Shown in pieces: positions 33,449 to 54,719 of a stretch of 64,000 bases of DNA. A program made the position numbers and the translations under genes. The stretch is taken from contig NZ_FOFA01000008.1 in the NCBI RefSeq assembly GCF_900110855.1, positions 130,521 to 194,520 of the forward strand. The letters are read 5' to 3'. Below the pieces are notes generated by a model. That model did no database searches. It saw only the letters and a list, made by a program, of their open reading frames with translations, and was not told the DNA's origin. How positions within the stretch are numbered: position 1 is the first letter of the stretch; each line of letters opens with the position of its first letter. Source of the stretch: Microlunatus flavus. Its GTDB lineage: Bacteria; Actinomycetota; Actinomycetes; Propionibacteriales; Propionibacteriaceae.

Positions 33449-33465
33449 CACCGACCACCCTTTCG

Positions 33466-37525: not shown

Positions 37526-37529
<4 letters not shown>
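37041..37529 (-). CDS. Small protein of unknown function in the dehydrogenase operon
   Basis: A 162-aa protein with one N-terminal hydrophobic segment (GLGVALAVGGGAVVLVRRL), a Gly-rich spacer and a charged soluble domain containing VTVNRSPEEVMPDNRVPGPLA. That block resembles the polyketide-cyclase-like or DUF2892-associated proteins seen with stress dehydrogenases. It overlaps both neighbours by 4 bases (GTGA), which strongly supports a coding role. The function is not assigned. Confidence 0.7.
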
Positions 37530-38095
<566 letters not shown>

Positions 38096-38132
38096 CAGTC
38101 CTCCTCCGTGCTTCGTCCGTGTTCGCGAGTCG

Positions 38133-39287
38133 TCATACGGAAGCCATCGCCGGCTTCAGCACGACCTTCGTCCAGCCGTCGTCGCGGGCGTCGAAATGGG
38201 TGTACGCGTCGGGTGCGCCGTCCAGCGGCAGCTGGTGGCTGACGATGAAGGACGGCTCGGCCTTGCCGGCCGCGATCAGGTCGCGCAGCGCCCGGTTGTA
38301 CCTCTTGATCGGCGCCTGGCCGCTGCCCATGTGCTGGCCCTTGAACCAGAACAGCCCGAAGTCGAAGGCCACCTGGCCCTTCTTGGCGAGGGCGTCGGCG
38401 GCTCCGGGGTCCTGCGGCACGAAGACGCCGACCATACCGATCGTGCCGGTGAACCGCACCGACCTCACCAGCTTGTTGAGGGTGTCGTTCGCGTGCTCGT
38501 TGCCCGAGGGGTCGTGCGCCTGGTAGCCCACGCACTCGCAGCCGTTGTCCGCGCCGAGCCCCATGGTCTGCTCCAGGACCGCCTCGACCGGGTCGACCTT
38601 GGAGTCGTCGATCGCGATGGCGCCGATCGACTCGGCCAGCCGCAGCCGGTCGGGGTGCCGGTCGACGACCATCACCTTGCTGGCCCCGCGGATCGTGGCC
38701 GACAGCGCGGCCATCAGCCCCACCGGTCCGGCGCCGTAGATGACGGTCTGGTCGCCGGGCGAGACGCCGGCCATCTCGGTGGCGTGGTAGCCGGTCGGGA
38801 AGATGTCGGCCAGCATCACGTAGTCGTTCTCCCGCTCGACCGAGTCCTCGCCGAGGCGCAGGCAGTTGAAGTCGCCCCACGGGACGCGCAGCAGCTCCGC
38901 CTGGCCGCCCGCCCACGGACCCATGTCCGCGAACCCGTACGCGGCGCCCGCCATGGCCGGGTCGGGCTGCGCGGTGAGGCAGTAGTTCGTCAGCCCGCGC
39001 TCGCAGTTCTTGCAGTGGCCGCAGGCGACGTTGAACGGGATCACCACCCGGTCGCCGACGCGCACCTTGTCCACCCCCGACCCGACCTCGACCACCTCGC
39101 CGAGGTTCTCGTGGCCGAACCAGCGGCCGGTCTCGAAATCGGTCCGACCCTCGTACATGTGCAGGTCGGACCCGCAGATGTTCGCGGCCGTGATGCGCAC
39201 CAGCACGTCCGTCGGGCGCTCGATCTTCGCGTCCGGGACGTCCTTGACGCTCACCTGCCGCGGTCCGTCGTACACCACTGCCTTCAT
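38133..39287 (-). CDS. Glutathione-independent formaldehyde dehydrogenase-like MDR protein
   Basis: A 384-aa zinc MDR enzyme, MKAVVYDGPRQVSVKDVPDA. Zinc ligands in CGSDLHMYEG and GHENLGEVVEVG; structural cysteines in CGHCKNCERGLTNYC; nucleotide motif GAGPVGLMAA. It resembles Pseudomonas FdhA-type enzymes that oxidise formaldehyde with tightly bound NAD, and is frequent beside DJ-1 proteins. First gene of the four-gene minus-strand cluster; the LuxR-type regulator is divergent. Confidence 0.9.
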   Translation of the reverse strand: MKAVVYDGPRQVSVKDVPDAKIERPTDVLVRITAANICGSDLHMYEGRTDFETGRWFGHENLGEVVEVGSGVDKVRVGDRVVIPFNVACGHCKNCERGLTNYCLTAQPDPAMAGAAYGFADMGPWAGGQAELLRVPWGDFNCLRLGEDSVERENDYVMLADIFPTGYHATEMAGVSPGDQTVIYGAGPVGLMAALSATIRGASKVMVVDRHPDRLRLAESIGAIAIDDSKVDPVEAVLEQTMGLGADNGCECVGYQAHDPSGNEHANDTLNKLVRSVRFTGTIGMVGVFVPQDPGAADALAKKGQVAFDFGLFWFKGQHMGSGQAPIKRYNRALRDLIAAGKAEPSFIVSHQLPLDGAPDAYTHFDARDDGWTKVVLKPAMASV

Positions 39288-39453
39288 CGCTTCTCCTGTC
39301 CATGCGTGGTTCTGGTGGCCTCGGGTACTGGCAGTGCGTCCGAAGCGCTGCGGCTTCACCAGGGGCCAGCCAACTCCCGAACGGCACCGCAGCACATCGG
39401 CAGAACGACCGACACCGGGTCAGCCGGCGCCGCCGGTGGAGGAGGCGCAGGAC

Positions 39454-40461
39454 GTGCCAGGACCAGCAGAAGCAGCCGCCGTCGCGACCGAGGTGGCGCG
39501 GATCGCCGCGACGCCCGACGAGCCGACGCAGCGCGCCGCTGCGCTCCTCGAGGCCCTTCAGCGGTTCCTGCCCTTCGACGCGGCCTGGCTGGCGTTGCGG
39601 GACGACAAGCGCGCCGGGCACGAGTCGCTGGTGAGCAGCGGGTGGGACCACCGCACGGCCACCTACCTGGACGGGCCGGTGCTGGTCGAGGAGATCGAGC
39701 AGCTCGGCATGACCCGGTCCCCCACCCCGCTCCGGGTCGCCGACTTCCCCGTGCCGGCGAACGAGCTGCGGTCCTGGGCGGAGTGCCTGCTGCCCGCCGG
39801 CCTGCAGGAGGGCCTGGGCATGTGCCTGTTCGCCCCGGACGGGCGCCACCTCGGGTTCCTGGGCCTGTTCACGGCCAGCCCGGCCGTCCCGTCGGACGCC
39901 GCCCGGGACCTGCTGGCCGCTCTCGGACCGACGCTGGGCCACGCGTTCGACCCGTTGCGCTCCGCGGTGGCGGCAGCCTGGCTGGTGCGGTCGGCGACCG
40001 CGGCCGTGGCCCTCACCCGCGCCGGACGCGTGCTGGCGGTGCCGGGGCTGGACGACCACCCGGCCCTGCGTGAGGGATCACCCGTGCTGGCGGTGGCCCG
40101 AGCGCTGCTCGAGGGACCGCAGACGTCGTTCCTGCTCCCCGCGCCGCTCGAACCCGGCGGCTACCTGACCGTCACCGTGCTCGACGTGCCCGACGACGTG
40201 CCCTTCCACCTCACCGCCGTCGTGGTGCTCTCGCCCTGCGGTGACCTGCACGGCCTCACGCGCCGAGAGCTCGAGGTGCTCGGGCTGCTGGTCACGGGCG
40301 GTCACAACAACGCGATCGCGCACCTCCTCAACGTCACTCAGCGCACCGTCGCCACCCACGTCGAGCACATCCTGCTCAAGCTCGACGCCGACAGCCGGGC
40401 GCTCGCCGCCCTCCGCGCCGAGCGACGAGGGCTGTACGTACCTCCTGGCCTCGTGCCGTGA
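39454..40461 (+). CDS. LuxR-type transcriptional regulator with GAF-like sensor region
   Basis: A 335-aa regulator. The N-terminal ~250 residues resemble a GAF-like sensor (RFLPFDAAWLALRDD...). The C-terminal ~60 residues are a LuxR helix-turn-helix: LTRRELEVLGLLVTGGHNNAIAHLLNVTQRTVATHVEHIL. The GTG at 39454 has GGAGGAGG 9 nt upstream; a GTG at 39436 is less well placed. It is divergent from the dehydrogenase/DJ-1 cluster and is its probable controller. Confidence 0.85.
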   Translation: MPGPAEAAAVATEVARIAATPDEPTQRAAALLEALQRFLPFDAAWLALRDDKRAGHESLVSSGWDHRTATYLDGPVLVEEIEQLGMTRSPTPLRVADFPVPANELRSWAECLLPAGLQEGLGMCLFAPDGRHLGFLGLFTASPAVPSDAARDLLAALGPTLGHAFDPLRSAVAAAWLVRSATAAVALTRAGRVLAVPGLDDHPALREGSPVLAVARALLEGPQTSFLLPAPLEPGGYLTVTVLDVPDDVPFHLTAVVVLSPCGDLHGLTRRELEVLGLLVTGGHNNAIAHLLNVTQRTVATHVEHILLKLDADSRALAALRAERRGLYVPPGLVP

Positions 40462-40579
40462 GCGTCCGTACGTCTCGCCGGGCTCTCTGAATCTGGACCG
40501 ACCGGCACGCCTTGGTCGCTGCTCGCGGCCACCCCGTCGCCATCACCGAGCGCTGGGAGACGGTGGCCGCGTGGCGTGG

Positions 40580-41155
40580 TCAGTCGGCGGACCATCCGGC
40601 GCGGAGGATCTCGAACGCCTGGTGGAGGACCTGCTGGTGGTCGGGGTAGTCACGGGCGAGGTCGACCGCGTCGAGGACGAAGCGCGCCAGTGTGGCCGCC
40701 GAGGTCCGACCAGCCTCTGAACCGGCCATGATCGCGTCGGTCAGGGCGACCTCGCGGAGCCGCAGCAGCCGGCGTTGGTGCTCACGCAACGCCGGCGTGC
40801 GGTTGACCATGTCGACGAACACCTCGAGCTCGTGGTCGTCGTAGCCGCGGTGCGTCAGCTCGTTCACGAGGTGCGTCTCCAAGGCGTCCAGGACGCTCTG
40901 CCCCGGGGGCCGTTCGCGTACCGCCGCGACGAGGTCGGCCTGCTGCTGCGGGTCCTCGTCGAAGACCAGCGACTCCTTGGTCGGGAAGTGGGCGAAGACG
41001 GTCGTGGGCGAGACGTCGGCGGCGTCGGCGATCTCCTTGACCGTCACCTGCTCGAACCCGCGCTCGAGGAAGAGGCGGGTCGCGGCATCGGAGATCGACG
41101 TGCGCGTCCGCGCCTTCTTGCGTTCCCGCCGCCCGGTCAGCCCTTCCGCGCTCAT
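40580..41155 (-). CDS. TetR-family repressor
   Basis: A 191-aa regulator with helix-turn-helix KEIADAADVSPTTVFAHFPTKESL and a C-terminal domain similar to MftR-like/TetR_17 proteins. It is divergent from the FAD monooxygenase, with an inverted repeat between them. It probably represses that monooxygenase. Confidence 0.9.
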   Translation of the reverse strand: MSAEGLTGRRERKKARTRTSISDAATRLFLERGFEQVTVKEIADAADVSPTTVFAHFPTKESLVFDEDPQQQADLVAAVRERPPGQSVLDALETHLVNELTHRGYDDHELEVFVDMVNRTPALREHQRRLLRLREVALTDAIMAGSEAGRTSAATLARFVLDAVDLARDYPDHQQVLHQAFEILRAGWSAD

Positions 41156-41180
41156 GCCGGAACGATAGCCATTCTCCTGG

Positions 41181-41208
41181 TTGACACCGAGACTGGTGTG
41201 ACTACAGT
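41181..41208 (+). promoter_or_regulatory. Promoter with TetR-like inverted repeat for the monooxygenase
   Basis: TTGACA (41181-41186) and TACAGT (41203-41208), spaced 16 bp, form a promoter directed to the monooxygenase gene. ACACC/GGTGT (41184-41199) is an inverted repeat within the spacer, where a repressor would block polymerase. Confidence 0.6.
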
Positions 41209-41280
41209 TTAGGAGCAAGTACACCGAACGGCCTGCGCATCTCGCTACGGCGTCGGTGCTCGAGAGCGAGGACGTCCGCC

Positions 41281-42453
41281 ATGATCCGCAGCACGACCCG
41301 ACCCGACCACTCACCCGCACCGCACGCAGCCCGGATCGCCGTCGTCGGTGCAGGGCCCGGCGGTCTCGTCGCCGCCCGCATCCTGCAGCGCCGCGGCCTC
41401 GAGGTCACCGTCTACGACAGCGACCCCGGGCCCGACAGCCGGGACCAGGGCGGCAGCCTCGACCTGCGGGTCGAGGACGGGCAGCGGGCGCTCGCCGAGG
41501 CGGGGCTCCTCGACCGGTTCTTCGAGCTCGCCCGACCCGAGGGCCAGCAGATGCGCCAGCTCGACCCGTTCGACGGTCACGTCGTCGTGGATCTCGTGCC
41601 CGAGCCGGATGAGCGGGAGAAGCCCGAGATCGACCGGGCCCAGCTCCGGACGCTGCTGCTGGACTCGGTCGAGGACGGCACCGTGCGCTGGGGCCACCGC
41701 CTCGACGCGGTCAGCACGACCAGCCCCGGCGCCAGGACCCGCACCCTGCGCTTCACGAACGGGTCGACGGCCGAGTGCGACCTCGTCGTCGGGGCCGACG
41801 GCGCGTTCTCCCGCGTCCGCCGAGCGGTGTCGGAGGCTGAGCCGCACTACACCGGCGTGCTGTTCCTGGAGGCCTGGTTCGACGACGTCACCCGGCGCCA
41901 CCCGTGGCTCGACGAGCTCGTCGGAGGCGGTGCGGCCAGCAGCGGCGACGGCCGACGAGGCATGTTCGCCCAACGCAGCTCCGGGGGCCACGTCCGCACC
42001 TACGTCATGCTCGGCGAGCCCGAGGACTGGCTCACCCGCCACGGGCTCACCGCCGGCGACACCGACGGGGTGCGCGCCGCGCTGCTGAACCATTTCGCCG
42101 GGTGGCACGAGAGCCTGACCCGGATGCTCACCGACAACGACGGACCCTTCGTCCCGCGGCCCGTCTACGCGCTTCCGGTCGACCACCGCTGGACGCACTC
42201 CGGCTCGCTCACCCTCCTCGGCGACGCCGCCCACCTGATGCCGCCGGTCGGGGTCGGCGTCAACCTGGCCATGCTCGACGCCTGCGAGCTCGCCCAGGCC
42301 CTCGCCGACCACGACACCCTCGACGCCGCCGTCCGTGCGTACGAAGCGACCATGTGGCCACGCTCCGCCGAGATGTCCGCACTCGTCGGTGGCATGGCCA
42401 CCGACCTCCTCGACGGCGCTGCGCCGCCGGTCGAGGTCACCCAGCACGCCTGA
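41281..42453 (+). CDS. FAD-dependent monooxygenase (TetX/PHBH-like)
   Basis: A 390-aa class A flavoprotein monooxygenase. The dinucleotide motif is IAVVGAGPGGLVAARIL, the DG motif lies in LVVGADGAFSRVR, and the third FAD motif in LTLLGDAAHLMPPVGVGVNLAMLDA. Close in layout to TetX-type enzymes that inactivate tetracyclines, but substrate calls within this family are unsafe. Divergent TetR control suggests induction by a xenobiotic or antibiotic-like compound. Confidence 0.88.
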   Translation: MIRSTTRPDHSPAPHAARIAVVGAGPGGLVAARILQRRGLEVTVYDSDPGPDSRDQGGSLDLRVEDGQRALAEAGLLDRFFELARPEGQQMRQLDPFDGHVVVDLVPEPDEREKPEIDRAQLRTLLLDSVEDGTVRWGHRLDAVSTTSPGARTRTLRFTNGSTAECDLVVGADGAFSRVRRAVSEAEPHYTGVLFLEAWFDDVTRRHPWLDELVGGGAASSGDGRRGMFAQRSSGGHVRTYVMLGEPEDWLTRHGLTAGDTDGVRAALLNHFAGWHESLTRMLTDNDGPFVPRPVYALPVDHRWTHSGSLTLLGDAAHLMPPVGVGVNLAMLDACELAQALADHDTLDAAVRAYEATMWPRSAEMSALVGGMATDLLDGAAPPVEVTQHA

Positions 42454-42556
42454 CCGCGCGGCGAGGCTGCGTCCTCCCGAGCAGCGCTCGACCGCCGTCG
42501 CACAAGAGCGCGACCGTCAGAACCCAAAGCATCGTGAGCGTCCTACCGTGACCTGC

Positions 42557-43294
42557 ATGGCCCGGCCGCAGCTCGACTCCTGGCTCTTGTGCGCGACTCC
42601 GCGCTCGGGCAGCACGTTGCTCTGCGGGCTGCTGGAGTCGTCGGGGGTGGCGGGTCGTCCCGCGTCGTACTTCAACCGGCGCGGGCTGCACGACTACTCC
42701 ACCAGCTGGCAGGTCTCCGAGGGCGCCGGTGGGCGGATCAGTGCGGCGTACGTGCGGGCAGCCCGGACGGCCGGCAGCACCCCGAACGGCGTCTTCGGGG
42801 GCCGGCTGATGGCCGAGTCGCGACCTGAGCTGATCGCCGACCTCACCACCGAGGACGACCGGCCCGCACCGAGCGACCTGGAGCTGTTGCGCCTGCACTT
42901 CGGTCGGATCCGCTTCGTCCACCTGCGCCGCCTCGACGTGGTGGCTCAGGCCGTCTCCTGGGCGAAGTCGCTCCAGACGCACTTCTGGCATCCCGGCGAG
43001 CAGGTCGAGCCCGGCGCGGAGGCTCCGCACTACGACGAGGAGCTGCTCGGGCGTCTGGTCGAGACGGTCGAGCAGTTCGAGGCCGGCTGGAACCGGTGGT
43101 TCACCGAGCAGCGGATCACCCCGTTCGAGGTGACCTACGAGCAGCTCGCCGCCGACCCGCTCTTCGTGGCGCACGAGGTGCTCGACTTCCTCGACCTGGA
43201 GCTCGACGAGGGACGCCGGCTCGTCGTCAGGGACCGGCAGCAGGCCGACCACGTCAACGCCCGGTGGATCGAGACCTTCAAGTCCCGCTCCTGA
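42557..43294 (+). CDS. Stf0-type sulfotransferase
   Basis: A 245-aa PAPS-dependent sulfotransferase. The 5'-phosphosulfate-binding loop is TPRSGSTLLCGLL, and RFVHLRRLDVVAQAVSWAKS is the 3'-phosphate-binding region of Stf0, the mycobacterial trehalose sulfotransferase family. FEVTYEQLAADP is a third family block. ATG at 42557; a GTG nine bases upstream is possible. The acceptor, perhaps a glycolipid sugar, is unknown. Confidence 0.88.
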   Translation: MARPQLDSWLLCATPRSGSTLLCGLLESSGVAGRPASYFNRRGLHDYSTSWQVSEGAGGRISAAYVRAARTAGSTPNGVFGGRLMAESRPELIADLTTEDDRPAPSDLELLRLHFGRIRFVHLRRLDVVAQAVSWAKSLQTHFWHPGEQVEPGAEAPHYDEELLGRLVETVEQFEAGWNRWFTEQRITPFEVTYEQLAADPLFVAHEVLDFLDLELDEGRRLVVRDRQQADHVNARWIETFKSRS

Positions 43295-43445
43295 GGTCGC
43301 GCGTCGCGCTGCGGGCCCTCGTGCGGACTTCGCCGGTCGACCGGCTCGCGGTCAGCGGCGGACCGATGGCTGCGTCCTCGCACGGCGCGCTCGAGGCCGC
43401 TCGATCCGGACGGTCGCCTCGGCGGCTGGCCGGTCCCGAGGAGCC

Positions 43446-44045
43446 CTACGAGCTCGAGCGCGGCCGTACCGGCGTCGCGATGGCGTCGATCGCGGCGTCG
43501 GCGATGCGGTTCAGCGTCGATGTGTCGACCCCTCCCCGAGCAAGCGCCTCGAGGCCGCGATGGGTGGTGACGACGAGCTGGCCGAGCACCGCGGGGTCGG
43601 CGTCCGGGTCGACGTGCCCGGCGCGTTGAGCCTGCTCGACCAGCCGGCGACAGCTGTCGAACAACATCTCGAAGGTCGCGAGCGACCGGGCCGCGACGAC
43701 CTCGTCCTCCGACGCCAGCTCGGCCGTGCCCTTGGCCAGCAGGCACGCGAGCTGCCCGGGCCTGTCCTCCGACGACCGGAGCCAGTCGCGAAGCCGCTGC
43801 AGCGCCTCGTCCTCGGGACCCTCGACCCGGGCTGCCACGTGGGCGCCCGCTGCTGAGCAGTACGCGTCGAACACCCGGTGGAACAGCGCCTCCTTGTCAC
43901 CGAACGCGCCGTAGAGGCTGCCCTTGCTCAGCCCCGTCACCCGCGAGAGATCCTCCACCGAGGTGCCGTGGTACCCGGTCTCGCTGAACTGCCGGAGGGC
44001 GGTGCCGACGACCTCGTCCTCGTCGAACTTCCGTGGTCGAGCCAT
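43446..44045 (-). CDS. TetR-family repressor
   Basis: A 199-aa regulator, MARPRKFDEDEVVGTALRQFSETGYHG, with helix-turn-helix SRVTGLSKGSLYGAFGDKEAL. This is the AcrR-like subgroup often paired with oxidoreductases. It is divergent from the short-chain dehydrogenase, with two palindromes in between. Confidence 0.92.
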   Translation of the reverse strand: MARPRKFDEDEVVGTALRQFSETGYHGTSVEDLSRVTGLSKGSLYGAFGDKEALFHRVFDAYCSAAGAHVAARVEGPEDEALQRLRDWLRSSEDRPGQLACLLAKGTAELASEDEVVAARSLATFEMLFDSCRRLVEQAQRAGHVDPDADPAVLGQLVVTTHRGLEALARGGVDTSTLNRIADAAIDAIATPVRPRSSS

Positions 44046-44065
44046 GCCTCGATCCTACGTGGTAC

Positions 44066-44109
44066 TGGACGATCGTTCCAGAACTGGCCTATTGTGGAAC
44101 GTACGTTCA
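44066..44109. promoter_or_regulatory. Two TetR operators between regulator and SDR
   Basis: TGGACGATCGTTCCA (44066-44080) and TGGAACGTACGTTCA (44095-44109) share the form TGGAACGnnCGTTCCA with one or two mismatches. The inner GAACGTACGTTC is a perfect 12-bp palindrome. Both lie in the divergent promoter. Confidence 0.78.
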
Positions 44110-44179
44110 GAACGCGTCTGGTCAGGCCGCGCTAGACGGACGAAACACCGCACACCTCCTCGAGCTCAAGGAGACCCCC

Positions 44180-44944
44180 ATGGGTCAGTTCGACTCCAAG
44201 ACGATCCTCATCACCGGTGGCGCCACCGGGATCGGGTTCGCCACCGCGCAACGCTTCGTCGAGGAAGGCGGAACGGTCTACCTCACGGGACGTCGAGAGG
44301 CGGAGCTGGCCGCGGCCGTGGCTCAGCTCGGACCACGCGCGACGGGGCTCCAGGGGGACGTCTCCAACCCCGTCGACCTCGACGAGACCTTCGACGTGGT
44401 GCGACGGCAGAGCGGCTCGCTGGACGTCCTCTTCGTCAACGCCGGCGGTGGCGACGGTCTGGCCACGATCGAGCAGTTCGATCCTGACGGCTTCGACGCG
44501 ACGTTCGGGCGCAACGTCAAGGGCGCCGCGCTGACCGTGCAGGAGGCGCTGCCCCTGATGACCACGTCAGGTTCCATCGTGATCACGGGCTCGACCAGCG
44601 CCGCGGTCGGTCACGCCGGTTTCGGGACCTACTCGGCCAGCAAGGCGGCCATCCGTCAGTACGCGCGGGTCTGGGCGGCCGAGCTCGCACCCCGGGGGAT
44701 CCGCGTCAACACCGTCGTTCCCGGCCCCACCGACACACCTGGCCTGCGCGGCATCGCCAAGGGCGACCCCGAGCAGGAGAAGGCGCTGCTCGTCAGCATG
44801 GGGGCGGACACTGCTCTGGGCCGGGTCGGAGACCCGCGCGAGATCGCCGACGTCGTGCTGTTCCTTGCCTCCGAGCGGGCCAGCTTCGTCACCGGCGCGG
44901 AGTTCCTGGTCGACGGAGGACAGGTCGAGACCCGCACCGCCTGA
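44180..44944 (+). CDS. Short-chain dehydrogenase/reductase
   Basis: A 254-aa classical SDR: cofactor motif TGGATGIG, NAG in FVNAGGGDG, catalytic Ser in ITGSTSA and YSASK. The GR pair after the cofactor motif (LTGRREAE) suggests NADPH preference. AAGGAG precedes the ATG. The divergent TetR with matching operators indicates inducible expression. The substrate is unknown. Confidence 0.92.
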   Translation: MGQFDSKTILITGGATGIGFATAQRFVEEGGTVYLTGRREAELAAAVAQLGPRATGLQGDVSNPVDLDETFDVVRRQSGSLDVLFVNAGGGDGLATIEQFDPDGFDATFGRNVKGAALTVQEALPLMTTSGSIVITGSTSAAVGHAGFGTYSASKAAIRQYARVWAAELAPRGIRVNTVVPGPTDTPGLRGIAKGDPEQEKALLVSMGADTALGRVGDPREIADVVLFLASERASFVTGAEFLVDGGQVETRTA

Positions 44945-45247
44945 CCCCAGCGCGGACGACCGGGGTCCGGCGGCGACCCTCGGCCGATGACGAGGCTGAG
45001 CAGTGCGGGCGTACCGCTCCGCCGGCGGCTTCGACGGTGGCATCCCCTTGTCGGCGGCGCCGAGGCCGCTCGGTCGTCGACGCCGTCGGACGCCCGGTAC
45101 CCCTCGCTTCGAGCTACGGAGCCAGGAGGAGACGGCCACCGAGGGCGGACCTCGAGGAACGAAAGACTCTTCGGCCGGTTGCTGGGGGGATTCGGCGAAT
45201 TGAGCCGTGCTGGGCTCCGCCGGCTCACCGCTGCTGCGTGAGGACGG
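44945..45247. other. 303-bp non-coding stretch after the SDR gene
   Basis: No supportable gene. The open frames here have no ribosome-binding site and no recognisable domain. The hairpin cluster starting at 45248 follows directly. Confidence 0.45.
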
Positions 45248-45395
45248 CCTCGGACCCGCTGTCCCCCGAGGAGCAGCGGGTCCGAGGTGGTGCCCGGTCG
45301 GCGCGTCCCCCGACGCGCACGCTCGACCGGTCCTCTCGGCTGGCCGGGACCTGCGACTCGCCGTCCCCCGAGGAGCGGCGCCGACAGGGCAGGTC
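45248..45395 (-). terminator. Cluster of three hairpins, two with the same 12-nt loop
   Basis: Hairpin 1 has perfect 14-bp arms (CCTCGGACCCGCTG at 45248-45261; complement 45274-45287). Hairpin 2 is GCGCGTC-CCCC-GACGCGC (45301-45318). Hairpin 3 has an inner CGCCG/CGGCG stem (45359-45380) and outer GACCTGC/GCAGGTC (45348-45354; 45389-45395). Hairpins 1 and 3 share the identical loop TCCCCCGAGGAG. The cluster begins 4 bp after the stop of the minus-strand secreted protein and probably terminates it. Confidence 0.7.
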
Positions 45396-45399
45396 CGGC

Positions 45400-46038
45400 T
45401 CAGCTGTTCTGGGCCTCCCAGGTGAAGCCGATCGCGGCGGTGCCGCCCTGGGTGGTGTTCGGCGCGTCGGTCTTGACCGTGTACGTCAGCTGGTAGGTCC
45501 GCGTCTCGGCCGCAGCACCGGTCGCAACACCGGCGGTGGCCCAGCTGCCCACCCCGGTGGAGTAGCCGGTCGCGCTGCTGCCGAAATCGGCGAGGGTGCC
45601 GGAGTAGACGCTCGACCCCGACGGGAGGGCGGTGAAGTTCGCGCAGCCACCCGCGGTGGAGCCGCCGGTGCCCTGGGTGACGGTCAGGTCGATGTTGTCG
45701 GCCAGCGCCTTCGTCGACGCCGCGCCGGTGCCGTACAGCTTGACGTTGGCGGGCAGGGTACCGGTGGAGGAGACCACGATGCAGCGGCTGCCGGTCGAGC
45801 CGGGCTTCAGGTTCGCGGCGGTGAAGGCGGCGGTGTTCGCGTCGTCGTCGGTCAGGGCGACGGTGCCGGTGGCCCAGTTGCTCGTCGGGTTGACCGTGGT
45901 CGCCGAGTAGGCCGAGTAGGACGACTGGGCCACGACGAGGCCGGACACGGCCAGCGCGGTCGGCACCGCGACCAGGGACACGATCGTGGCGACCTTGCGC
46001 GACGGGCGGCGGGCGGCGGTGGTGGCGACTGCGGACAT
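45400..46038 (-). CDS. Camelysin/TasA-like secreted protein with SipW-type signal
   Basis: A 212-aa exported protein. The signal helix (IVSLVAVPTALAVSGLVVA) is followed by SSYSAYSATTVNPTSNWATGTVALTDDD. This is the conserved start of camelysin/TasA-like proteins, which are processed by a SipW-like peptidase and often assemble into fibres. One Cys pair (SRCIVV and GGCANF) could form a disulfide. The ATG at 46038 has GAGGAG 6 nt upstream. No SipW-like peptidase is nearby. Confidence 0.82.
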   Translation of the reverse strand: MSAVATTAARRPSRKVATIVSLVAVPTALAVSGLVVAQSSYSAYSATTVNPTSNWATGTVALTDDDANTAAFTAANLKPGSTGSRCIVVSSTGTLPANVKLYGTGAASTKALADNIDLTVTQGTGGSTAGGCANFTALPSGSSVYSGTLADFGSSATGYSTGVGSWATAGVATGAAAETRTYQLTYTVKTDAPNTTQGGTAAIGFTWEAQNS

Positions 46039-46383
46039 CGGGGGCTCCTCGGAGTGGTGGTGGTGCTCGAGTGGTGTCGTTCGAGCCAGCCCCCGCTTGC
46101 TCCCCGAACCCTGGTGGCCCGGTGAGAAGAACTCTGCCGAGACCGCCTCAAGACCGGCCACCGACAAGTGACAACGGTGTCCAAGGACAACCGCAAGATT
46201 GAACCATCAACTGTCGGCGCCTCAAGGAAGGCTCTGGAACGCCGCTCTGCTGGCCTCTGGGGCTCCTCGCAAGGGACTTCGCGCGCCCTGTCCCGGGCAG
46301 GACTCGCCTGCAGAACCGATCGGTGGCAGGGACCTGGCCTGCGCACGCCCGGGTGGGCCGACGAGGAGATAGGTCAGACGCTG

Positions 46384-46428
46384 TGGAGCGGACGACGGGA
46401 ATCGAACCCGCATATTCAGCTTGGGAAG
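46384..46428 (-). other. 3' fragment of tRNA-Gly(CCC): probable attachment site of an integrated element
   Basis: Read on the minus strand this holds an anticodon loop TTCCCAA (anticodon CCC), the 3' anticodon strand GCTG, a T-arm GGGTTCGATTCCC, acceptor strand CGTCCGC and an encoded CCA. The 5' half (GCGGACG acceptor strand and D arm) is absent: the sequence to the right up to 46470 has nothing matching. Loss of similarity exactly at the anticodon loop is typical of a tyrosine-recombinase attachment site. In this orientation the element lies to the right and the chromosome to the left. Confidence 0.82.
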
Positions 46429-47878
46429 ACACCGAGGAGGACTGGGAGTAGCGCGGCTGAGCGTGAATCAGGGCGTTTCGTACCCCTTCAGGACCCCTCT
46501 CAGCGGCGGTGCTGGGCCCGTGGGGGCCCGGACGGCCTGTTCGCCCGGCGGAATCGAACAGCCGGGCCGGGCCCTAAGCCTCGAGCTGTATCAGGTGGGG
46601 CTGTTCGCGGCGAGTCTTGTATGTACGGGTCCGCCTGAGTGTCCTCTCACGCCAGGGTCGCAGTGCGGGCCGAACGCGAACGCGTGTCGATCGACCGACA
46701 GGCGTTCCTTCGGCGAACGCGGGCAAGCACCAAGATCAAGGGCAACGTCGCCACCACAACGCCGTTAACGGCGAGGGGCATAACCCAACTCGGTCCGCGG
46801 GAACCGGAATTGAGCCCGTAGAAGACCAAGTGGCACGCCGGGCCGACGAGCCTCGCGGCCGTCATCCCACGACTCAGGCCAATGCCGCTGCTGCGCTAGC
46901 GACCCCCGGATGCGTTGCAGCCGCACGTCACATCTCCTGCCGCTTACCGGCCCATGACCAGCAAACTTCCGCTGAGTGTCGTCTGGGCCGCTGGACGGCT
47001 GGATACCGGCATCGCGCTGTTACGGCCGCAGTGAGTTGCTCAGACCACCAGGTGCGCCGGTCTGCCCTGCCGGCACCGAGCCGCACCTGAGGCCACGCCT
47101 GTGCGGGACGGGATGTCTTGATCATCCAGAACCCCTTCGGGTGACCCGGGAAGATCTTCAACAACGGCTCCGAGCAATCGAGGCACTCGTACCGCACGCT
47201 CCCACCCTTGAGTTGAGTTCCGCCTGGTCCATCGTGACCAGCCGGCCACAGTCCCCCGCAGTTCGCCTCAAGGTGCTCAGCTTCGACCGGCGGAGAGTCT
47301 CTTGGCATGACTGTCGAGAGCAACTCACAAGCCGTGATCGGCGAACGGGCCACATTGACGCCAACTCGGTAGGCTCATGGCCCACTAACTCGAGCGCGCA
47401 AGCACTCCATCTCGGCGACTCAATGGGACTTCTCCGCTCCAAGAGCTCCCCCGCGTGAAGCCTTGGCTCGCGCTGGACGACCGACTCCCATCGCCGATTA
47501 AGCCCGGCGGCGCAGGCTTCGGGGCCATAGGCATCGAGCCCCGTTGCCCGCAGCTTCTTCACGTCGCCCAAGATCGAGGGAGCGTGCCCGTATGCATCGT
47601 CGCCTTGCTGAGCCTCAATGCCGCCCCGAAAGTAAACGCGACCCTGAAGCAGGCGTCACCCTCAAGCGCGGCTCTTGAAGCGGGACCAGATCCGAGATTC
47701 AATACCCACGACCAAGTCGCAGTAGAGGCCCGTCTCGAAGGGCGCAGATCGAGAGTTAGAACCAGTCTGTCAGCCCGATCAGCAATAGAGCGATGTCACT
47801 TTGGCTAACGGCCGGCAGGCAGCGCGCCCTAGGCAGAGCCCTGTACTGCCTTCCAAACTCAGCGCTGCCGCGGAGAAG
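46429..47878. other. 1.45-kb sparse, compositionally distinct stretch next to the attachment site
   Basis: Lower GC and more even third-codon-position use than the left part of the window. Several overlapping open frames of 60-160 codons exist on both strands but none has a ribosome-binding site, recognisable domain or consistent codon bias. The minus-strand frame at 46928-47353 contains a VRYECLDCSEPLL segment that could be a zinc-ribbon remnant. I see no integrase. Probably decayed island-end sequence. Confidence 0.5.
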
Positions 47879-48334
47879 TCACCTCTTCTTGCCTCGCTTG
47901 CGTTTCTGCTTGTTACCTCGACGTGCGACGCGATTGCCTTCAGCCATCGGCTTAGGAGCTGGCACGAGCGGGAGAGGCGGAGGGCGATGAATGATCTTAT
48001 TGACGCTCATCGGGTTGGTGGAGTAAACGCCGTAGTTGATGCCGTATAACGCTGTTTCGCCCACCAGCTCCGTACCGCTACTGTCGATATTGAGGAGCCC
48101 GATGGAATCAGCGGGCATCGCGCCGTCCTCCACAGTCAGTTCTACTGTTCCCATGTAGCAGTCCTGAAGAACGATCGCAGCAGGAGCCCCGCCGTACTGT
48201 TGGTTCACGTACTCGCGTCGGAGTTCCTGCCGACACCGACAATTCCCCCCCAGGTAGGCACGACCGTCGGCGTCCTCAGTAGACGTGTCGCTCGGCGCGC
48301 CGCAGCGAGGGCAAGTCCACTCTGGGTCGCTCAC
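47879..48334 (-). CDS. Hypothetical island protein with N-terminal zinc-ribbon motif
   Basis: A 151-aa protein. The N-terminus SDPEWTCPRCGAPS and the following CRCRQ give a plausible zinc knuckle. The centre is beta-like (QDCYMGTVELTVEDGAMPADSIGLL), and the tail is very basic, ending KQKRKRGKKR. Its start overlaps the stop of the upstream membrane protein by 4 bases. The base composition is lower in GC than the core genes, consistent with transfer. The function is unknown. Confidence 0.65.
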   Translation of the reverse strand: MSDPEWTCPRCGAPSDTSTEDADGRAYLGGNCRCRQELRREYVNQQYGGAPAAIVLQDCYMGTVELTVEDGAMPADSIGLLNIDSSGTELVGETALYGINYGVYSTNPMSVNKIIHRPPPLPLVPAPKPMAEGNRVARRGNKQKRKRGKKR

Positions 48335-48681
48335 TGGTCGGACCGTCGCTCGCGCGGCTTGTGCCTGAGTCTGCCAATAGTGTTGTCCACTGCGCCGTCT
48401 TCGAAGGCATGGTCAGCCGTCGTGTCTATCTCGCCTATAGCGTTGCCCTGGGCGTCGGAACCAAACGTCCACGTCGCTGGCCGAGCCGGCTCGGCCGCAT
48501 CCGGCTCGGCGCCTCCCTTCCCACGGAGAAGGGCGACACCTACGGCGAGCCCGGCGACCGCAAGGGCTGCAAGAAGTATCGCTGTGATTTTGGGATAGTC
48601 CCTCGCGACCGCAAGTAGAGTACCAGCCCCGCTGACTAAACCTATGATTAAGGAACCAAGCGCTACAACCCGTTGATTCAT
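48331..48681 (-). CDS. Hypothetical two-helix membrane protein, partner of the zinc-ribbon protein
   Basis: A 116-aa protein with hydrophobic segments at about 5-27 and 32-51 (ALGSLIIGLVSGAGTLLAV; AILLAALAVAGLAVGVALL), then a soluble tail with GSDAQGNAIGEIDTTADHAFEDGAVDNTIG. AGAAGGG lies 6 nt before the ATG. It is coupled by a 4-base overlap to the downstream zinc-ribbon gene. The tail's short beta-like repeats (NAIGEI, NTIGRL) echo parts of the partner protein (DSIGLL). Confidence 0.65.
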   Translation of the reverse strand: MNQRVVALGSLIIGLVSGAGTLLAVARDYPKITAILLAALAVAGLAVGVALLRGKGGAEPDAAEPARPATWTFGSDAQGNAIGEIDTTADHAFEDGAVDNTIGRLRHKPRERRSDQ

Positions 48682-49204
48682 CGTGAACCCTTCTGCTCTT
48701 TTACCATCTGAAGATATTATTGCGTGCTGCAAAGCCTAGACTAGGTAAGCACTCAACAAGTCAGGCTGAGATTACCTACCAAGTATCGGCAGTCTCTGAT
48801 GACGATGACAGCAGCACCTGCCGCCCTCATCGAGCCCTACGGGTTCGACAAATAGTAACGACACCGCTTCGAGCGACCCTTAAGAGGACGCCGCGGGCCG
48901 TTGGTCCGCGAACCCTCCTACTAATGCACCAACGCCCGGTCGTGCGGCAGCTAAGCGGTCGACGGTTGCAGGACGCCCGCGACATGCTCGACGAGTTCAT
49001 CAGGGCGAACGCGCCGCTCAACCGGTGGGCAAGGACCGAAGCCACCACGGCCCGACCGTCAAGTTCACCACCGCCTCCAGCCGCGCCCGCAACGCTTGCT
49101 GGTGCTTAGGCCGATCCAACGACTTCTCGGTGGCACCCAGCTCGGGTCGAGCTCGTAGATCCGCCACAGCAGGCGGGTTGATCGTCGCGGCGCTCCGGTG
49201 CCGC
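48682..49204. other. 523-bp non-coding stretch, AT-rich in its first part
   Basis: About 48680-48800 is the most AT-rich part of the window and probably holds the promoter of the two-gene operon. The remaining open frames (for example 48720-49109) lack a ribosome-binding site and recognisable similarity. I see no gene here. Confidence 0.45.
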
Positions 49205-49630
49205 TCAGCCCAGGCGCTGAGCGAAGTGGAAGGACGTGATGTCCAGCCGCTCACGCAGGTAGAAGCGATGGGCGGCGTGCCGCTGCACGCCCGAGTCGAG
49301 GTCGAGGACGTGGCAGCCCTCGCTGAGCGCGCGCGCCCGCAGCTCACCGAGGAGGACCGCACCCACGCCGTTCGACCGGGCGGCTGTCGTGGTGCACAGG
49401 TCGTCGACGTAGAGCTTGCGCAGGGCGCTCGTGTTGACGACGACTCGCCATCCGGCGACTCCGAGGCACCGGTCGGCGTCGAAGACTGCGGTGAACCGAA
49501 GGCCTTGCGGTGCGCCGTCGCGCAGCACCTGCTGCAGGCTCGCGGCCGTCAGGTGCGGCCGGAGCTCCTGCAGCACCGGTAGTGCCGAGCCCCATCGGGC
49601 GTCTCCCGCCGGCAGGTCGACGATCTCCAT
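49205..49630 (-). CDS. GNAT-family N-acetyltransferase
   Basis: A 141-aa GNAT protein. The acetyl-CoA-binding region is LYVDDLCTTTAARSNGVGAVLLGELRARA, a variant of the R/Q-x-x-G-x-G/A loop. The C-terminal HRFYLRERLDITSFHFAQ is typical of this family. ATG at 49630 (MEIVDLPAGD); a GTG at 49642 would add four residues. It is divergent from the CGNR gene. The substrate is unknown. Confidence 0.83.
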   Translation of the reverse strand: MEIVDLPAGDARWGSALPVLQELRPHLTAASLQQVLRDGAPQGLRFTAVFDADRCLGVAGWRVVVNTSALRKLYVDDLCTTTAARSNGVGAVLLGELRARALSEGCHVLDLDSGVQRHAAHRFYLRERLDITSFHFAQRLG

Positions 49631-49690
49631 CTGCGTTGCCACCTCGTCAGCACCATTAGGGTCTTCGGCGCTGACGCTAGCATCACCCAC

Positions 49691-50215
49691 GTGGGTGTGT
49701 TGTCCGAGTACAGCGACGAGGGGCTGCTGCTTGCTGTGGCGCTCGCCAACGCCGGCAGCGCCTGCCGACGGGGCGACGTCGCGCAGCCCGGCCTGCCGAT
49801 CAATGGCGTCGTCGTCCGCACCGAGGGGGCCGAGGAGCTCGCTCTCGCCGCAGCGCAGGTCCGCGAGATCCTCGCCGCGCCGACCCCTGGCCGTGCGGCG
49901 GAGCTGATCAACCGCTTGCTGGTGGCCCAGCAGGCGCGACCCGAGCTCGCGCCTGACCAGGACGGGCGGTGGCGCCTCCACCTGCACCCGAGGGGCGCGA
50001 GTGCGGCTGCGCTGGACCTGGTCAAGGCCGCGACTGGTCTCGCTGTCCTTGTCGACGAGGGGCGCTGGGGCACGATCCGGGCCTGCGGCGCCGAGCGCTG
50101 CGACGACCTCTTCCTGGACCAGTCCCGCAACCTGATCCGACGCTACTGCAGCAGGGTCTGCGCGAACCGCGTGAACGCCGCGCTGCATCGTCGACGAGCG
50201 GCGTCCGAGCCGTAG
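49691..50215 (+). CDS. CGNR zinc-finger regulator with ABATE domain
   Basis: A 174-aa DNA-binding-type protein. The N-terminal ABATE-like domain (ALANAGSACRRGDVAQPG...) is followed by a C-terminal treble-clef CGNR finger: IRACGAERCDDLFLDQSRN then YCSRVCANRVNAALHRRR. GTG start. Such proteins are usually stress-linked transcription factors controlling a neighbouring enzyme, so the divergent GNAT gene may be its target. Confidence 0.88.
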   Translation: MGVLSEYSDEGLLLAVALANAGSACRRGDVAQPGLPINGVVVRTEGAEELALAAAQVREILAAPTPGRAAELINRLLVAQQARPELAPDQDGRWRLHLHPRGASAAALDLVKAATGLAVLVDEGRWGTIRACGAERCDDLFLDQSRNLIRRYCSRVCANRVNAALHRRRAASEP

Positions 50216-50370
50216 ACCGTACGCATCAGGTGGCGGGCCATCGCGCGGCAGCCAACCTCGACGGTCGACGGAGTGGTGACGGGCGGCAGCCCGCCGAGCA
50301 GTGACGCGCACGCTCGACGCGCGATGCACCATCGGGCACAGCTACCTGGCTGGTGTCCCGAGCGATGCGA

Positions 50371-50859
50371 CTAGTCCGCGAGCAACCCGTCCTGCACCAG
50401 GCGGGGCACAAGGAGGTCGCGCAGAGCTGGAGCCAGGACGTCAGGAGCCCGGAGCCCCACGGCACTGATCCAACGCAGGTCGGCCAGCTCGGCGCCCAGT
50501 CGGGGCGGGCTGGTGAGATCGCAGCGGTAGACCGTGAGGCGCATCGGTATTGCCTCCAGGGCTGCAGGCGCGCTGAGCACGAGGTAGGGCTGCGCGTCGA
50601 CAGGCGCTGCGGAAAGCTCTTCGTCCAGCTCACGAGCCAGGGTCTGCTGATGGGACTCGCCAGCCTCAGGCTTGCCGCCCGGCAGGTAGAAGACGTGGGC
50701 TGCGACGGCCTTGCTGACCGTCAGCAGCCGCCGGTCCACCAGGATCGCCGCCGCCACCACATCCAGGACCACGGAGTCCGCGACGGCCAGGGGGTCCGGC
50801 GCGCGACCCAGATGGATAGGCGTGCTGCCGTACTTGACGTGGTCCTCGCGACCGCTCAC
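50371..50859 (-). CDS. NUDIX hydrolase
   Basis: A 162-aa nucleotide pyrophosphohydrolase. The Nudix box is GGKPEAGESHQQTLARELDEEL, split here as GGKPEAGE and RELDEEL, with Ser in place of the usual following Gly-type residue. The N-terminal ~30 residues are not conserved. The GTG start overlaps the upstream DUF1579-like gene by 4 bases. Possible roles are oxidised-dNTP clean-up or ADP-ribose-type hydrolysis; the substrate is not predictable. Confidence 0.85.
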   Translation of the reverse strand: MSGREDHVKYGSTPIHLGRAPDPLAVADSVVLDVVAAAILVDRRLLTVSKAVAAHVFYLPGGKPEAGESHQQTLARELDEELSAAPVDAQPYLVLSAPAALEAIPMRLTVYRCDLTSPPRLGAELADLRWISAVGLRAPDVLAPALRDLLVPRLVQDGLLAD

Positions 50860-51335
50860 CCGCCCGAGCCCGGCGCGGGCTCGGCAGGGATCGCGACGAA
50901 GGTCGCATCCAGCACGGATTCCCAGGTCTGGCCGTCCGGCCGGCGGAAGTCGCGGGACCAGGTCCATCCGGTGGACGTGGGTCGGACGGTGAGTCTGCTG
51001 CTCCCCCGGGTCGTCGTGCGCTCCAGGACGAGACCGGACGGCTGCCAGGTGCCGCGGGCGGGGGGATCGGCGGGGAAGCCGGCGGTGTCGAAGCCGTAGT
51101 AGAGCACCTCGTCCGTCGCCGGATCGACCATCCACACGACGACCAGCTCGAAGGACACTGCTGCGTCGCGCCACTGGGTGTAGCGCTGGACGACGAGTTC
51201 CCCTCCCACCTCCGGCACCGCCTTGACCGTGCTCGCAGCAGTTCCACCGCTCGCCCAGACGCTCGGATGCATGCGTTCGACCCCGGTGAAGGATCCCAGC
51301 AGGAAGGCGAGGCGATCGGCGGTCGACGTAGGCAT
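50856..51335 (-). CDS. DUF1579-like small beta-barrel protein
   Basis: A 159-aa soluble protein, with FLLGSFTGVERMHPSVWASGG near the start, alternating beta strands and the WTWSRDFRRPDGQTWESVLDATFV end. This is the layout of DUF1579/heme-binding-like lipocalin-type domains. AAGGAGTCTG precedes the ATG. Its promoter holds a 14-bp palindrome, and a MarR gene lies upstream. Co-translated with the NUDIX gene. The function is unknown. Confidence 0.75.
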   Translation of the reverse strand: MPTSTADRLAFLLGSFTGVERMHPSVWASGGTAASTVKAVPEVGGELVVQRYTQWRDAAVSFELVVVWMVDPATDEVLYYGFDTAGFPADPPARGTWQPSGLVLERTTTRGSSRLTVRPTSTGWTWSRDFRRPDGQTWESVLDATFVAIPAEPAPGSGG

Positions 51336-51343
51336 CAGACTCC

Positions 51344-51357
51344 TTGGTACATACCAA
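51344..51357. promoter_or_regulatory. 14-bp palindrome upstream of the DUF1579-like/NUDIX operon
   Basis: TTGGTACATACCAA (6-bp arms, 2-nt centre) covers the region just before the ribosome-binding site. The adjacent MarR gene is the obvious candidate binder, although HxlR-type proteins use similar sites. Confidence 0.6.
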
Positions 51358-51464
51358 CTATCGAGAGACGCTACCACTGGTCTCGTGCCGCACCCTTCCC
51401 TCTGGCGAACGCGAAGGCCGAGAAGGACGCTGGGCTAAATGATGGATGGAGAGCTGGGACCCGC

Positions 51465-51923
51465 TCAGAGGGTGCGCGCATGGACCAGAAGGGCGCGGAG
51501 GGTCGCATGGAGCTGCAGGCGGGTCTCCTCCGGCAGCATGGCCAGAAGCTCGTCGTCGACTCCTTGCGTGATCTGCCGTGCCCGCTCCAACGCGTCCTTG
51601 CCAAGCGGCGACATCTGCACCAAGCGACGTCGCCGGTCCTGCGGGTCAACCGACCGGGTGACGCGGCGCCGCTCGAGCATCTCCTCCACCTGCGCCGTGA
51701 CGTCGCTGGGGTCCAGTCCGAGGCGACGCGCCAGCTCGGTGTGCGGAAGCGGGCCCGACTGCTCGAGCACCGCCAGCGCAGCCATATCGAGCATCGTGAG
51801 GCCCTGGTCCGCGAGCCGCGCCGTGAGCCGTCGTCGCCCGTGTCGGCCGAGCTGCGACAAGAGGTAGACGGTGTGGTCGGCGAGCGGCGGATCGGCTGTT
51901 CTCACGGGCGCCACCTCCCGCAC
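51465..51923 (-). CDS. MarR-family transcriptional regulator
   Basis: A 152-aa winged-helix regulator. Recognition region LARRLGLDPSDVTAQVEEMLERR and the wing DPQDRRRRLVQMSPLG are diagnostic. An alternative GTG start six codons in would remove a non-conserved leader. On the same strand as, and 129 bp upstream of, the DUF1579-like/NUDIX pair, whose promoter holds a palindrome. Confidence 0.92.
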   Translation of the reverse strand: MREVAPVRTADPPLADHTVYLLSQLGRHGRRRLTARLADQGLTMLDMAALAVLEQSGPLPHTELARRLGLDPSDVTAQVEEMLERRRVTRSVDPQDRRRRLVQMSPLGKDALERARQITQGVDDELLAMLPEETRLQLHATLRALLVHARTL

Positions 51924-51995
51924 CCTACCGATCCGCGTCCTGTCGCCGGCCCGGTCGCTGTGCGACTCAAGATGCCGCCCTGCGAGCCGCGCCCG

Positions 51996-52655
51996 CTACC
52001 CCTCGGTGTTCGGCTGCGCGCGCGAGGACCCGTCAGCGGAACGACCCACGACACGAGCGAGGTCGGCCCTGAGCCCCGACAGCAGCCAGTCGAGGCCGCG
52101 GAGGAACAGGCGCTCCTCGTCCGGGGCCGGGTCGCCGGGTGCCGTGCGGGCCGCTACCGCGGCCAGGGTCCACCGCGCGCATGCCTCGAAGACCTCCTTA
52201 GCCTCGCCGGCCGACACCCCCAGCCGGGCCAGGGCCTCGATCTGCGAACGAGCCAGCCGCCCGCGCGACAGGTCGTCCTGATAGCGGTCCTGGCCCGCGG
52301 TCGCCTGGACCAGACCAGCCAGCCCGGGGTGTGCTGCGTAGAAGTCGCGAAGCCGCAGGCTTCCTGAGCGCGTGAGCTCGATCCAGGCCTCGACCGAGGT
52401 CACGTCCTCGTAGGCGGCCTGATCGGCCGCGAACGACGTGAACGCGTCGCGGGCAAGGAGTCGCAGCAAGGCGGCCTTGTCGCGTACGTGATGGTAGAGC
52501 GTCGGGGTGCGTACTCCGAGCCGCTCGGCCACAGCAGCCATCGTCAGACCAGCCACTCCGCGCTCGGCGACGACCTCCAGCGCCTGCGCCACGACGTCGG
52601 CGACGGAGATGCCCACAGACGCATGCGAGGAGCCGGTGCGCGCTTGTCCTGCCAC
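51996..52655 (-). CDS. TetR-family repressor
   Basis: A 219-aa TetR protein with helix-turn-helix VAERLGVRTPTLYHHVRDKAALL and a C-terminal domain of the WHG/TetR_C type (ARWTLAAVAARTAPGDPAPDEERLFLRGLDWLL). Divergent from the acetyltransferase-fusion gene; a large inverted repeat covers the shared promoter. Confidence 0.92.
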   Translation of the reverse strand: MAGQARTGSSHASVGISVADVVAQALEVVAERGVAGLTMAAVAERLGVRTPTLYHHVRDKAALLRLLARDAFTSFAADQAAYEDVTSVEAWIELTRSGSLRLRDFYAAHPGLAGLVQATAGQDRYQDDLSRGRLARSQIEALARLGVSAGEAKEVFEACARWTLAAVAARTAPGDPAPDEERLFLRGLDWLLSGLRADLARVVGRSADGSSRAQPNTEG

Positions 52656-52675
52656 CTTCCTCCTCTGCTGGTGCT

Positions 52676-52704
52676 ACGTTCGTCTAACCCTATTAGACGA
52701 ACGT
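52676..52704. promoter_or_regulatory. TetR operator with perfect 12-bp arms
   Basis: ACGTTCGTCTAA (52676-52687) and its exact complement (52693-52704) flank CCCTA. It sits 14 bp from the acetyltransferase start and 20 bp from the TetR start, so one bound dimer would block both. The TTAGACGAACG half-site is typical of TetR operators. Confidence 0.85.
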
Positions 52705-52718
52705 GGTGAGGAGCGCGG

Positions 52719-53783
52719 ATGCCCGAGGAACCGCCGGTTCGAGGTGCGATCTCCGTCAAGTTCCCCGTAAGGACGGCACGCCTCGATCTGCGTCCGCACC
52801 GGGAGGACGACCTCGACGACCTGCTGCGGTTCCACTCCGACCCGGAGGTCGTGCGCTACATCCCTTGGCCGGTGCGGGACCTCGAACAGACACGCGCCGC
52901 CTTGCAGGTGAAGATCGCTCGTGGGACCGAGGCACGACCGGGCGAGTGGTTGATGCTTGCCATCGAGCTGCGTGAGACAGGGTCCGTGATCGGAGAGGTT
53001 CTGCTGCGGTGGGCCGACGAGGGCAACCGTCAGGGCGAGTTGGGCTTCGCTCTGGCCCGCGAGCACCAGGGTCAAGGGCTCGCAGCCGAGGCGGCGCAGG
53101 CGGTCCTCAGGGTCGGGTTCCAGGACCTCGACCTGCACCGGATCACCGCCGTCTGCGTCGCGGAGAACACGGCGTCGGCGCGGCTGCTCTACCGGCTCGG
53201 CTTCCTGCAGGAGGCCCACTTGCGCGAGAGCGCGTTCTTCAAGGGCCGGTGGGCCGATCAGCTCCTCTTCGGCCTGCTCGAGGAGGAGTGGCGGGCCGGG
53301 GAGGCTCCGGCCACGACTTCCCCCTCGAGCACGGCGGACCGGGCCGAGATCGTAGAACTTGTCGGCACCTTCTTCCGTGCCTTCACCTCGGGTGACGGGG
53401 CGCACGGGCGGATCGCGCAGTTGCACGAGCGCTTCCTCCCGCAGGCCGTCGTGGTGAGGACCTGCGGCGAGGAGCCCGCCGTGCTCGGAGTTGACCAGTT
53501 CCTGGCACCACGGGAACGGCTGCTGAGCGACGGCAGCCTCGTCGACTTCCAGGAGTGGCCGGTTCAAGGTCGCCTCGAGATCTTCGGCGATGTCGCGCAC
53601 TGGTTCGGCAGCTACACAAAGGTGGGGATCCAGGCAGGCGCGCGGGTGGACGGGGCGGGGATGAAGAGCCTTCAGCTCGTCCGTACGGGAGCGGGTTGGC
53701 GGATCAGCGCCGCCGCCTGGGACGACGAGCGCGACGACCTGTCGGTCCGCGGTGCCGCGGCGGGCCTGCCGAGGTGGGGCTGA
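52719..53783 (+). CDS. Fusion of GNAT acetyltransferase and NTF2-like (SnoaL/DUF4440-type) domain
   Basis: A 354-aa protein. Residues about 15-190 are a RimJ-type GNAT domain (TARLDLRPHREDDLDDLLRF; FALAREHQGQGLAAEAAQA). After a Ser/Thr linker, residues about 205-345 resemble an NTF2-like fold (ELVGTFFRAFTSGDGAHGR; LHERFLPQAVVV; the WRISAAAWDDER end). Both parts are in one frame with no internal start that looks used. It overlaps the phosphatase start by one base and is controlled by the divergent TetR. The substrate is unknown. Confidence 0.85.
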   Translation: MPEEPPVRGAISVKFPVRTARLDLRPHREDDLDDLLRFHSDPEVVRYIPWPVRDLEQTRAALQVKIARGTEARPGEWLMLAIELRETGSVIGEVLLRWADEGNRQGELGFALAREHQGQGLAAEAAQAVLRVGFQDLDLHRITAVCVAENTASARLLYRLGFLQEAHLRESAFFKGRWADQLLFGLLEEEWRAGEAPATTSPSSTADRAEIVELVGTFFRAFTSGDGAHGRIAQLHERFLPQAVVVRTCGEEPAVLGVDQFLAPRERLLSDGSLVDFQEWPVQGRLEIFGDVAHWFGSYTKVGIQAGARVDGAGMKSLQLVRTGAGWRISAAAWDDERDDLSVRGAAAGLPRWG

Positions 53784-54562: not shown

Positions 54563-54719
54563 AGGACTCGGCTGCGCCCGGAGTTGCACAAGTGCCGGCA
54601 CTCGCTCTACGAGTGCGTTCCTCGGCGAGCTCAGCCGATCCAGACGCTTTGGTCCGTCGCCTGATTCGCCAGTACGTCGAGAAGAGGGCAAGAGATTCGG
54701 TTGCGATGCATGAGCTCTG

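Follow-up and report, generated by a model that had tools for sequence, protein, structure and literature searches.

A 46.5 kb genomic island very probably integrated downstream of tRNA-Gly(CCC) in Microlunatus flavus

Introduction

Actinophage attachment cores of 30–45 bp that span the 3′ half of a tRNA gene rebuild the tRNA, and mycobacteriophages commonly have their attachment site at the anticodon loop, as described in the part of PMC10865867 available to us; tRNA-Gly(CCC) is the target of four phages, whose cores measure 42/44 and 47 bp (Table 2 of that source). AICEs, in the available portion of PMC3218068, are defined by Int, Rep, and Tra functions and integrate in tRNA 3′ ends.

Here we describe an island in Microlunatus flavus (assembly of 4.79 Mb in 26 contigs) whose left part lies in a stretch of 64,000 nucleotides (G000:C10:130521-194520), referred to as the window; relative coordinates continue the window numbering beyond its right end. 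The island shares with the P. freudenreichii phages B22 and E1 and the Gordonia phages BritBrat and Spooky the use of tRNA-Gly(CCC), a similar core length, and a rebuilt tRNA, and its site is at the anticodon loop as in the mycobacteriophages (PMC10865867, in part). Unlike these four phages, as far as that part describes them, it has 46 kb of metabolic and regulatory cargo and no virion genes were found in it. Island and AICEs both have a tyrosine integrase adjacent to an attachment site in a tRNA 3′ end and an excisionase-like neighbor, but the Rep and Tra modules that the available portion of PMC3218068 gives for AICEs were not found among the 58 island open reading frames (ORFs). tRNA-dependent lysogeny also places attB inside a tRNA gene, but with a core of ~10 bp and without rebuilding the tRNA (PMC10865867, same part), whereas the island has a 45-bp core and an intact tRNA. 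The element-borne tRNA of such systems has no counterpart here, as an intact tRNA-Gly(CCC) lies beside the integrase and no other tRNA is present in the window or in the neighboring loci L005-L007.

Results

The fragment at the left end of the island (Table 1) is a 45-nucleotide sequence corresponding to bases 30-74 of tRNA-Gly(CCC), and it includes the last base of the 5′ anticodon stem followed by the anticodon loop, the T arm, the acceptor 3′ strand, and CCA. The first-pass annotation, made from the window alone, had read it as just such a 3′ part, and the exact match bears this out. ARAGORN predicts no complete tRNA within the 64,000-nucleotide window, and Rfam at gathering scores gives no match there. 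Searching the genome with the fragment gave a single further strong match, which shares its contig and strand and lies 46.5 kb to the right, and ARAGORN identifies this as an intact tRNA-Gly(CCC); two weaker matches are tRNA-Gly(GCC) and tRNA-Gly(TCC), and no second intact tRNA-Gly(CCC) was found in this genome. The likeness between fragment and intact gene runs ~14 bases past the CCA, giving 95% over 59 bases overall, and to the left of the fragment 10 of 11 bases following the first three agree with the right inner end of the island. An ungapped scan of 109,480 bases on both strands recovers the two copies at 45/45 and a next best place at only 26/45, and a chance match can therefore be excluded.

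Table 1. Coordinates of the island, its attachment sites, and associated features (window numbering; relative positions lie beyond position 64,000)
Feature	Position	Strand	Remarks
Further 17.1 kb, absent from this site in congener G003	29253..46383	.	blastn blocks; host-like GC
tRNA-Gly(CCC) 3′ fragment, island-distal attachment site, 45-bp core	46384..46428	-	45/45 with the intact tRNA beyond the window
Integrated island, left part	46429..64000	.	between the two cores; continues to relative 92877
Three short blocks, candidate integrase arm sites	46487..46588	+	repeated at relative 92740-92856 in the same order and orientation
Excisionase-like HTH_17 gene, 100 aa	relative 91333-91635	+	PF12728
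Tyrosine integrase, 446 aa	relative 91632-92972 (L006:13152-14492)	+	PF00589 and PF14659
Intact tRNA-Gly(CCC)	relative 92878-92951 (G000:C10:223398-223471; L006:14398-14471)	-	ARAGORN

The genome contains six PF00589 matches, one of which (C10:222674-223195) belongs to the integrase adjoining the intact tRNA. The integrase gene overlaps the end of the HTH_17 gene by a few bases and points toward the tRNA, which is on the opposite strand. Motifs at residues 202-206, 238-244, 309-313, and 334-346 carry what we take to be the usual catalytic residues of tyrosine recombinases (R, K, HxxR, H, and Y). The first-pass annotation had proposed that the element extends rightward, toward an intact tRNA-Gly(CCC) with an identical 3′ segment and an adjoining integrase; all of these were found, outside the window. 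The three short blocks shared by the two island ends are candidate arm-type integrase sites, judging from the sequence. Of 586 random pairs of island pieces, 12 reached their summed match score and 7 reached that of the best block alone, in a test that imposed no requirement of order or position. The longest exact match between the ends is 13 bases, a length reached by 3 of 370 random pairs.

Counting one core, the island is 46,494 bp long. Its GC content is 0.690, against 0.739 and 0.744 outside it, in keeping with the fall to the right noted in the first-pass annotation; in 5-kb bins it is 0.66-0.68 up to ~71.4 kb and 0.71-0.72 thereafter. The coding fraction (0.603 vs 0.874 and 0.849 in the outer flanks) and the codon score per codon (0.184 vs 0.353 and 0.358) also deviate, although both derive from a purpose-made gene caller that was trained mostly on the flanks and favors them. 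With the same caller ~40% of the island falls outside called genes, and some stretches are gene-poor.

The cargo was surveyed with Pfam on the 58 ORFs, some of them overlapping or alternative and short of an exhaustive six-frame set. Matches include five RibD_C, three GNAT, two YCII, and a NUDIX domain; sigma factors, two with DUF6596 and one with SnoaL_2; and regulators of the MarR, TetR (two), LysR, ArsR-like, HTH_67, AraC-type, and GntR-aminotransferase kinds. There are also matches to tyrosine phosphatase, glyoxalase-fold, solute-binding, FG-GAP, isochorismatase, GrpB, NIPSNAP, DUF3224, aminotransferase, EamA, and IS110 transposase, and a DHDPS-like gene is divided between two frames. Taken together, these genes look like the metabolic and regulatory complement of an ordinary chromosome. 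No transfer, replication, or virion domains are among the Pfam matches of these ORFs: FtsK, RepAM, Prim-Pol, and relaxase are absent (RepSA being sought only as far as Pfam covers it), so that of the AICE set of Int, Rep (RepSA, RepAM, or Prim-Pol), and Tra (FtsK-like) only Int is present, and there are no virion, lysis, or packaging domains such as a prophage would carry.

Two similar modules composed of RibD_C, YCII, and a DUF6596 sigma factor are present within the island, at 55011-57803 and at relative 75217-78552 (L005, L006), and presumably resemble the ECF42 sigma groups. A role in defense was considered for 10 selected island proteins, none of which has a PADLOC match. A plasmid origin of the left end (45.0-49.5 kb) was likewise set aside, since the four plasmid records that matched did so solely at the tRNA-like core in three cases and at the GNAT gene in the other.

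Congener G003 has no island: there, gene g29 is followed by one intact tRNA-Gly(CCC) and then by g88. L040:13645-17628 of this genome aligns by blastn to 92878-96977, and a 46-base stretch at the tRNA (L040:13644-13689) matches the fragment as well. Similarity to the left flank begins again at 29252, such that 63.6 kb is absent in G003, comprising the island and a further 17.1 kb. The first-pass annotation had anticipated an empty site in a related genome, joined at about the position of the fragment; such an unoccupied site was found, and because these 17.1 kb are also missing from it, variable DNA extends to the left past the fragment.

Nine congener loci with tRNA-Gly(CCC) were compared, two tRNA-Gly(TCC) loci being dropped and L041 being an extension of the G003 locus. 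Genes g88-g90 on the 5′ side of the tRNA are kept in eight of the nine, and the left-flank genes on its 3′ side in three (two of the nine loci span just 2.6 and 3.4 kb on that side). None of the nine has any of the island genes g49-g87 at ≥40% identity over half their length; the dropped tRNA-Gly(TCC) locus of G007 has four island-gene matches at 41-50%. The first reading would have been undermined by conservation of the 46.4-64 kb genes in core order in relatives, and over 49.2-64.0 kb in 19 congeners (15 candidates scored per genome) the matches are scattered and mostly to single genes. The gene-order search covered two stretches, 49,205-63,990 and relative 65,014-78,480, amounting to 28.3 of the 46.5 kb, and found no run in island order among these candidates. 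Congeners with any match at E up to 1e-20 number 16/19 for the first stretch and 13/19 for the second, again with dispersed and mostly single genes.

Partial matches to the fragment starting at query base 31 or later are present in 17 of 57 genomes (own included), 24 matches in all, and by our count 18 of these start at 36-41, within the anticodon region. BLAST starts are inexact, one match is only 26 bases long, and some are on other contigs or near other tRNA-Gly genes.

The 17.1 kb to the left of the fragment differs little from the host, with a GC content of 0.7225 and a codon score of 0.334 over 29-46 kb. No attachment core lies at or near 29.25 kb (the 26/45 place being the best other in the 109 kb scanned), and a search of 26-49 kb for a remnant integrase gave nothing better than E = 1.7 except the antisense-tRNA tail, i.e. 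the fragment itself. Of the 19 genes called in the segment, the ten that were scanned encode, among others, an SBF-family transporter, a low-molecular-weight phosphatase-type protein, dehydrogenases, and regulators, and parts of the segment match other places in congeners, G003 among them. The SBF-family transporter gene adjoins that for the phosphatase-type protein (31114-32648), a pair that we take to suggest an arsenic resistance operon.

A similar geometry recurs in other genera. Relatives of the integrase were collected at 78 named loci, and a tRNA within 800 bp is Gly(CCC) at 54, Val(TAC) at four, and Gly(TCC) at one, with none at 19; the count is biased, both because these loci are the best of a capped list and because the six search patterns included antisense tRNA, the latter raising the number of tRNAs. 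At 27 of the 54 Gly(CCC) loci a second core (≥36/45) is present in the fetched flank. In a protein-only sample of 30 loci from the order (E up to 1e-60, 44 of 391 genomes, four candidates scored per genome, flanks of ~1.5 kb or less), Gly(CCC) is found at four (own included), Gly(TCC) at two, and Trp, Lys, and Arg at one each, while the remaining 21 lack a tRNA within 800 bp. The sister elements measure ~1.6-11.1 kb core to core, as viewed in flanks of ~10 kb, and the island is far longer. Integrases of genomes G054 and G033 also lie beside tRNA-Gly(CCC), with a second core 17.7 and 5.1 kb away, respectively, and these elements carry DUF3631 (PF12307; L106:16762-18369 and L108:4337-5782), which is the RepAM replication domain of AICEs (PMC3218068, available portion). 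Phage records with integrase relatives number 1459, and none reaches 60% identity; of those listed, an unannotated fecal phage ranks first at 40%, and the other 11 are mycobacteriophages at 33-34%.

The integrase reading frame continues through the attachment core and the tRNA antisense strand. In the integrated form the core is followed by 16 final residues, read from the tRNA antisense and adjoining flank; on the circle, seven mostly acidic residues would follow it instead. Of the 59 named loci that have a tRNA no more than 800 bp away, only L128 has an integrase frame that runs on, and in the other 58 it ends short of the tRNA; read-through is thus not supported as a conserved trait and looks incidental. 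By eye, an antisense-tRNA tail is present only in the query and P0002 among the 120 homologues listed of 4463, many of the 120 being from short contigs.

Discussion

A direct repeat at the two ends formed by the 45-bp cores, an integrase beside the intact tRNA, an unoccupied site in G003, and a deviating composition with no shared gene order among the candidates scored over 28.3 kb in 19 congeners are all present, as the proposal that the fragment marks one end of a genomic island would have it. We are highly confident that these 46.5 kb are an integrative genomic island that entered the chromosome downstream of tRNA-Gly(CCC). Its tyrosine integrase would have acted on two copies of the 45-bp core, one carried by a circular form (attP) and the other lying in the 3′ half of the tRNA gene of the host (attB), such that the incoming core restored a complete tRNA at the integrase end and the displaced host 3′ half stayed at the far end as the fragment. 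Excision would use the same integrase together with the small HTH_17 protein. We infer a circular form and present-day mobility from these features; the route of the island into the cell can likewise only be surmised, because no transfer genes were found. Since published actinophage cores rebuild the tRNA and AICEs integrate in tRNA 3′ ends, the mechanism, a usual way for bacteria to acquire blocks of genes, is already known, and the island is one more case of it.

Fragments of tRNA genes can arise by other kinds of recombination, and the fragment could in principle be a chance or non-mobile duplication. The exact 45-bp core with an integrase beside its other copy, the blocks common to both island ends, the unoccupied site in G003, and the partial copies that begin at similar positions elsewhere among the genomes leave this with a negligible probability. 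The history of the locus may nonetheless be more involved. The island may be composite, because it is far longer than its sister elements, has gene-poor stretches, and changes in GC near 71.4 kb. In a tentative extension of the preferred explanation, to which we give an appreciable if minor chance, insertions are stacked: 29.25-46.38 kb would be an older element with a decayed outer site, and 46.38-92.9 kb a younger and perhaps mosaic one. The whole of 29,253-92,877 is missing from this site in G003, the sequence bordering the fragment on its left is similar to the island's right inner end and by eye unlike the G003 flank, and the GC step within the island is also consistent with it; but no core is evident near 29.25 kb, no integrase likeness better than E = 1.7 accompanies the left segment apart from the fragment, its composition is host-like, and loss or rearrangement in G003 would also account for the 17 kb.

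It is somewhat unlikely that the element is instead a defective prophage or a decayed AICE that lost its virion or transfer genes. The relatives of its integrase in phage records, although below 60% identity, the DUF3631 genes in the elements that occupy this tRNA in G054 and G033, and the large fraction of the island without called genes, as scored by a caller that favors the flanks, would agree with such decay. Against it, neither FtsK, RepAM, Prim-Pol, and relaxase nor virion domains were seen in the 58 ORFs, and the cargo resembles that of an ordinary chromosome.

For the integrated island itself, the passage of the integrase frame through the core raises the idea that the integrase senses its own integration state, with the swap of tails upon integration switching the recombinase. 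If the integrated and circular forms differ in stability or activity, integration would act as such a switch through the tail; we regard the idea as highly doubtful. In mycobacteriophage BPs, the attachment site reportedly lies in the repressor gene. Its integration-dependent immunity (PMC4557955, available part) is similar in that an attachment site within a coding frame allows integration to change a protein end, but in BPs the repressor frame is affected, whereas in the island it is that of the integrase and the effect is hypothetical. In the literature on integration and protein ends we found no direct report of integration altering the end of an integrase, and we do not claim that there is none; PMC8074189, considered as a lead, is off the point in the part available.

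From half a tRNA gene in raw sequence it was thus possible to foresee both an intact partner and an integrase, which lie 46 kb away and beyond the window. The elements at a tRNA-Gly(CCC) site that is reused across actinomycetes gain a large member, an island in which no transfer genes were detected.
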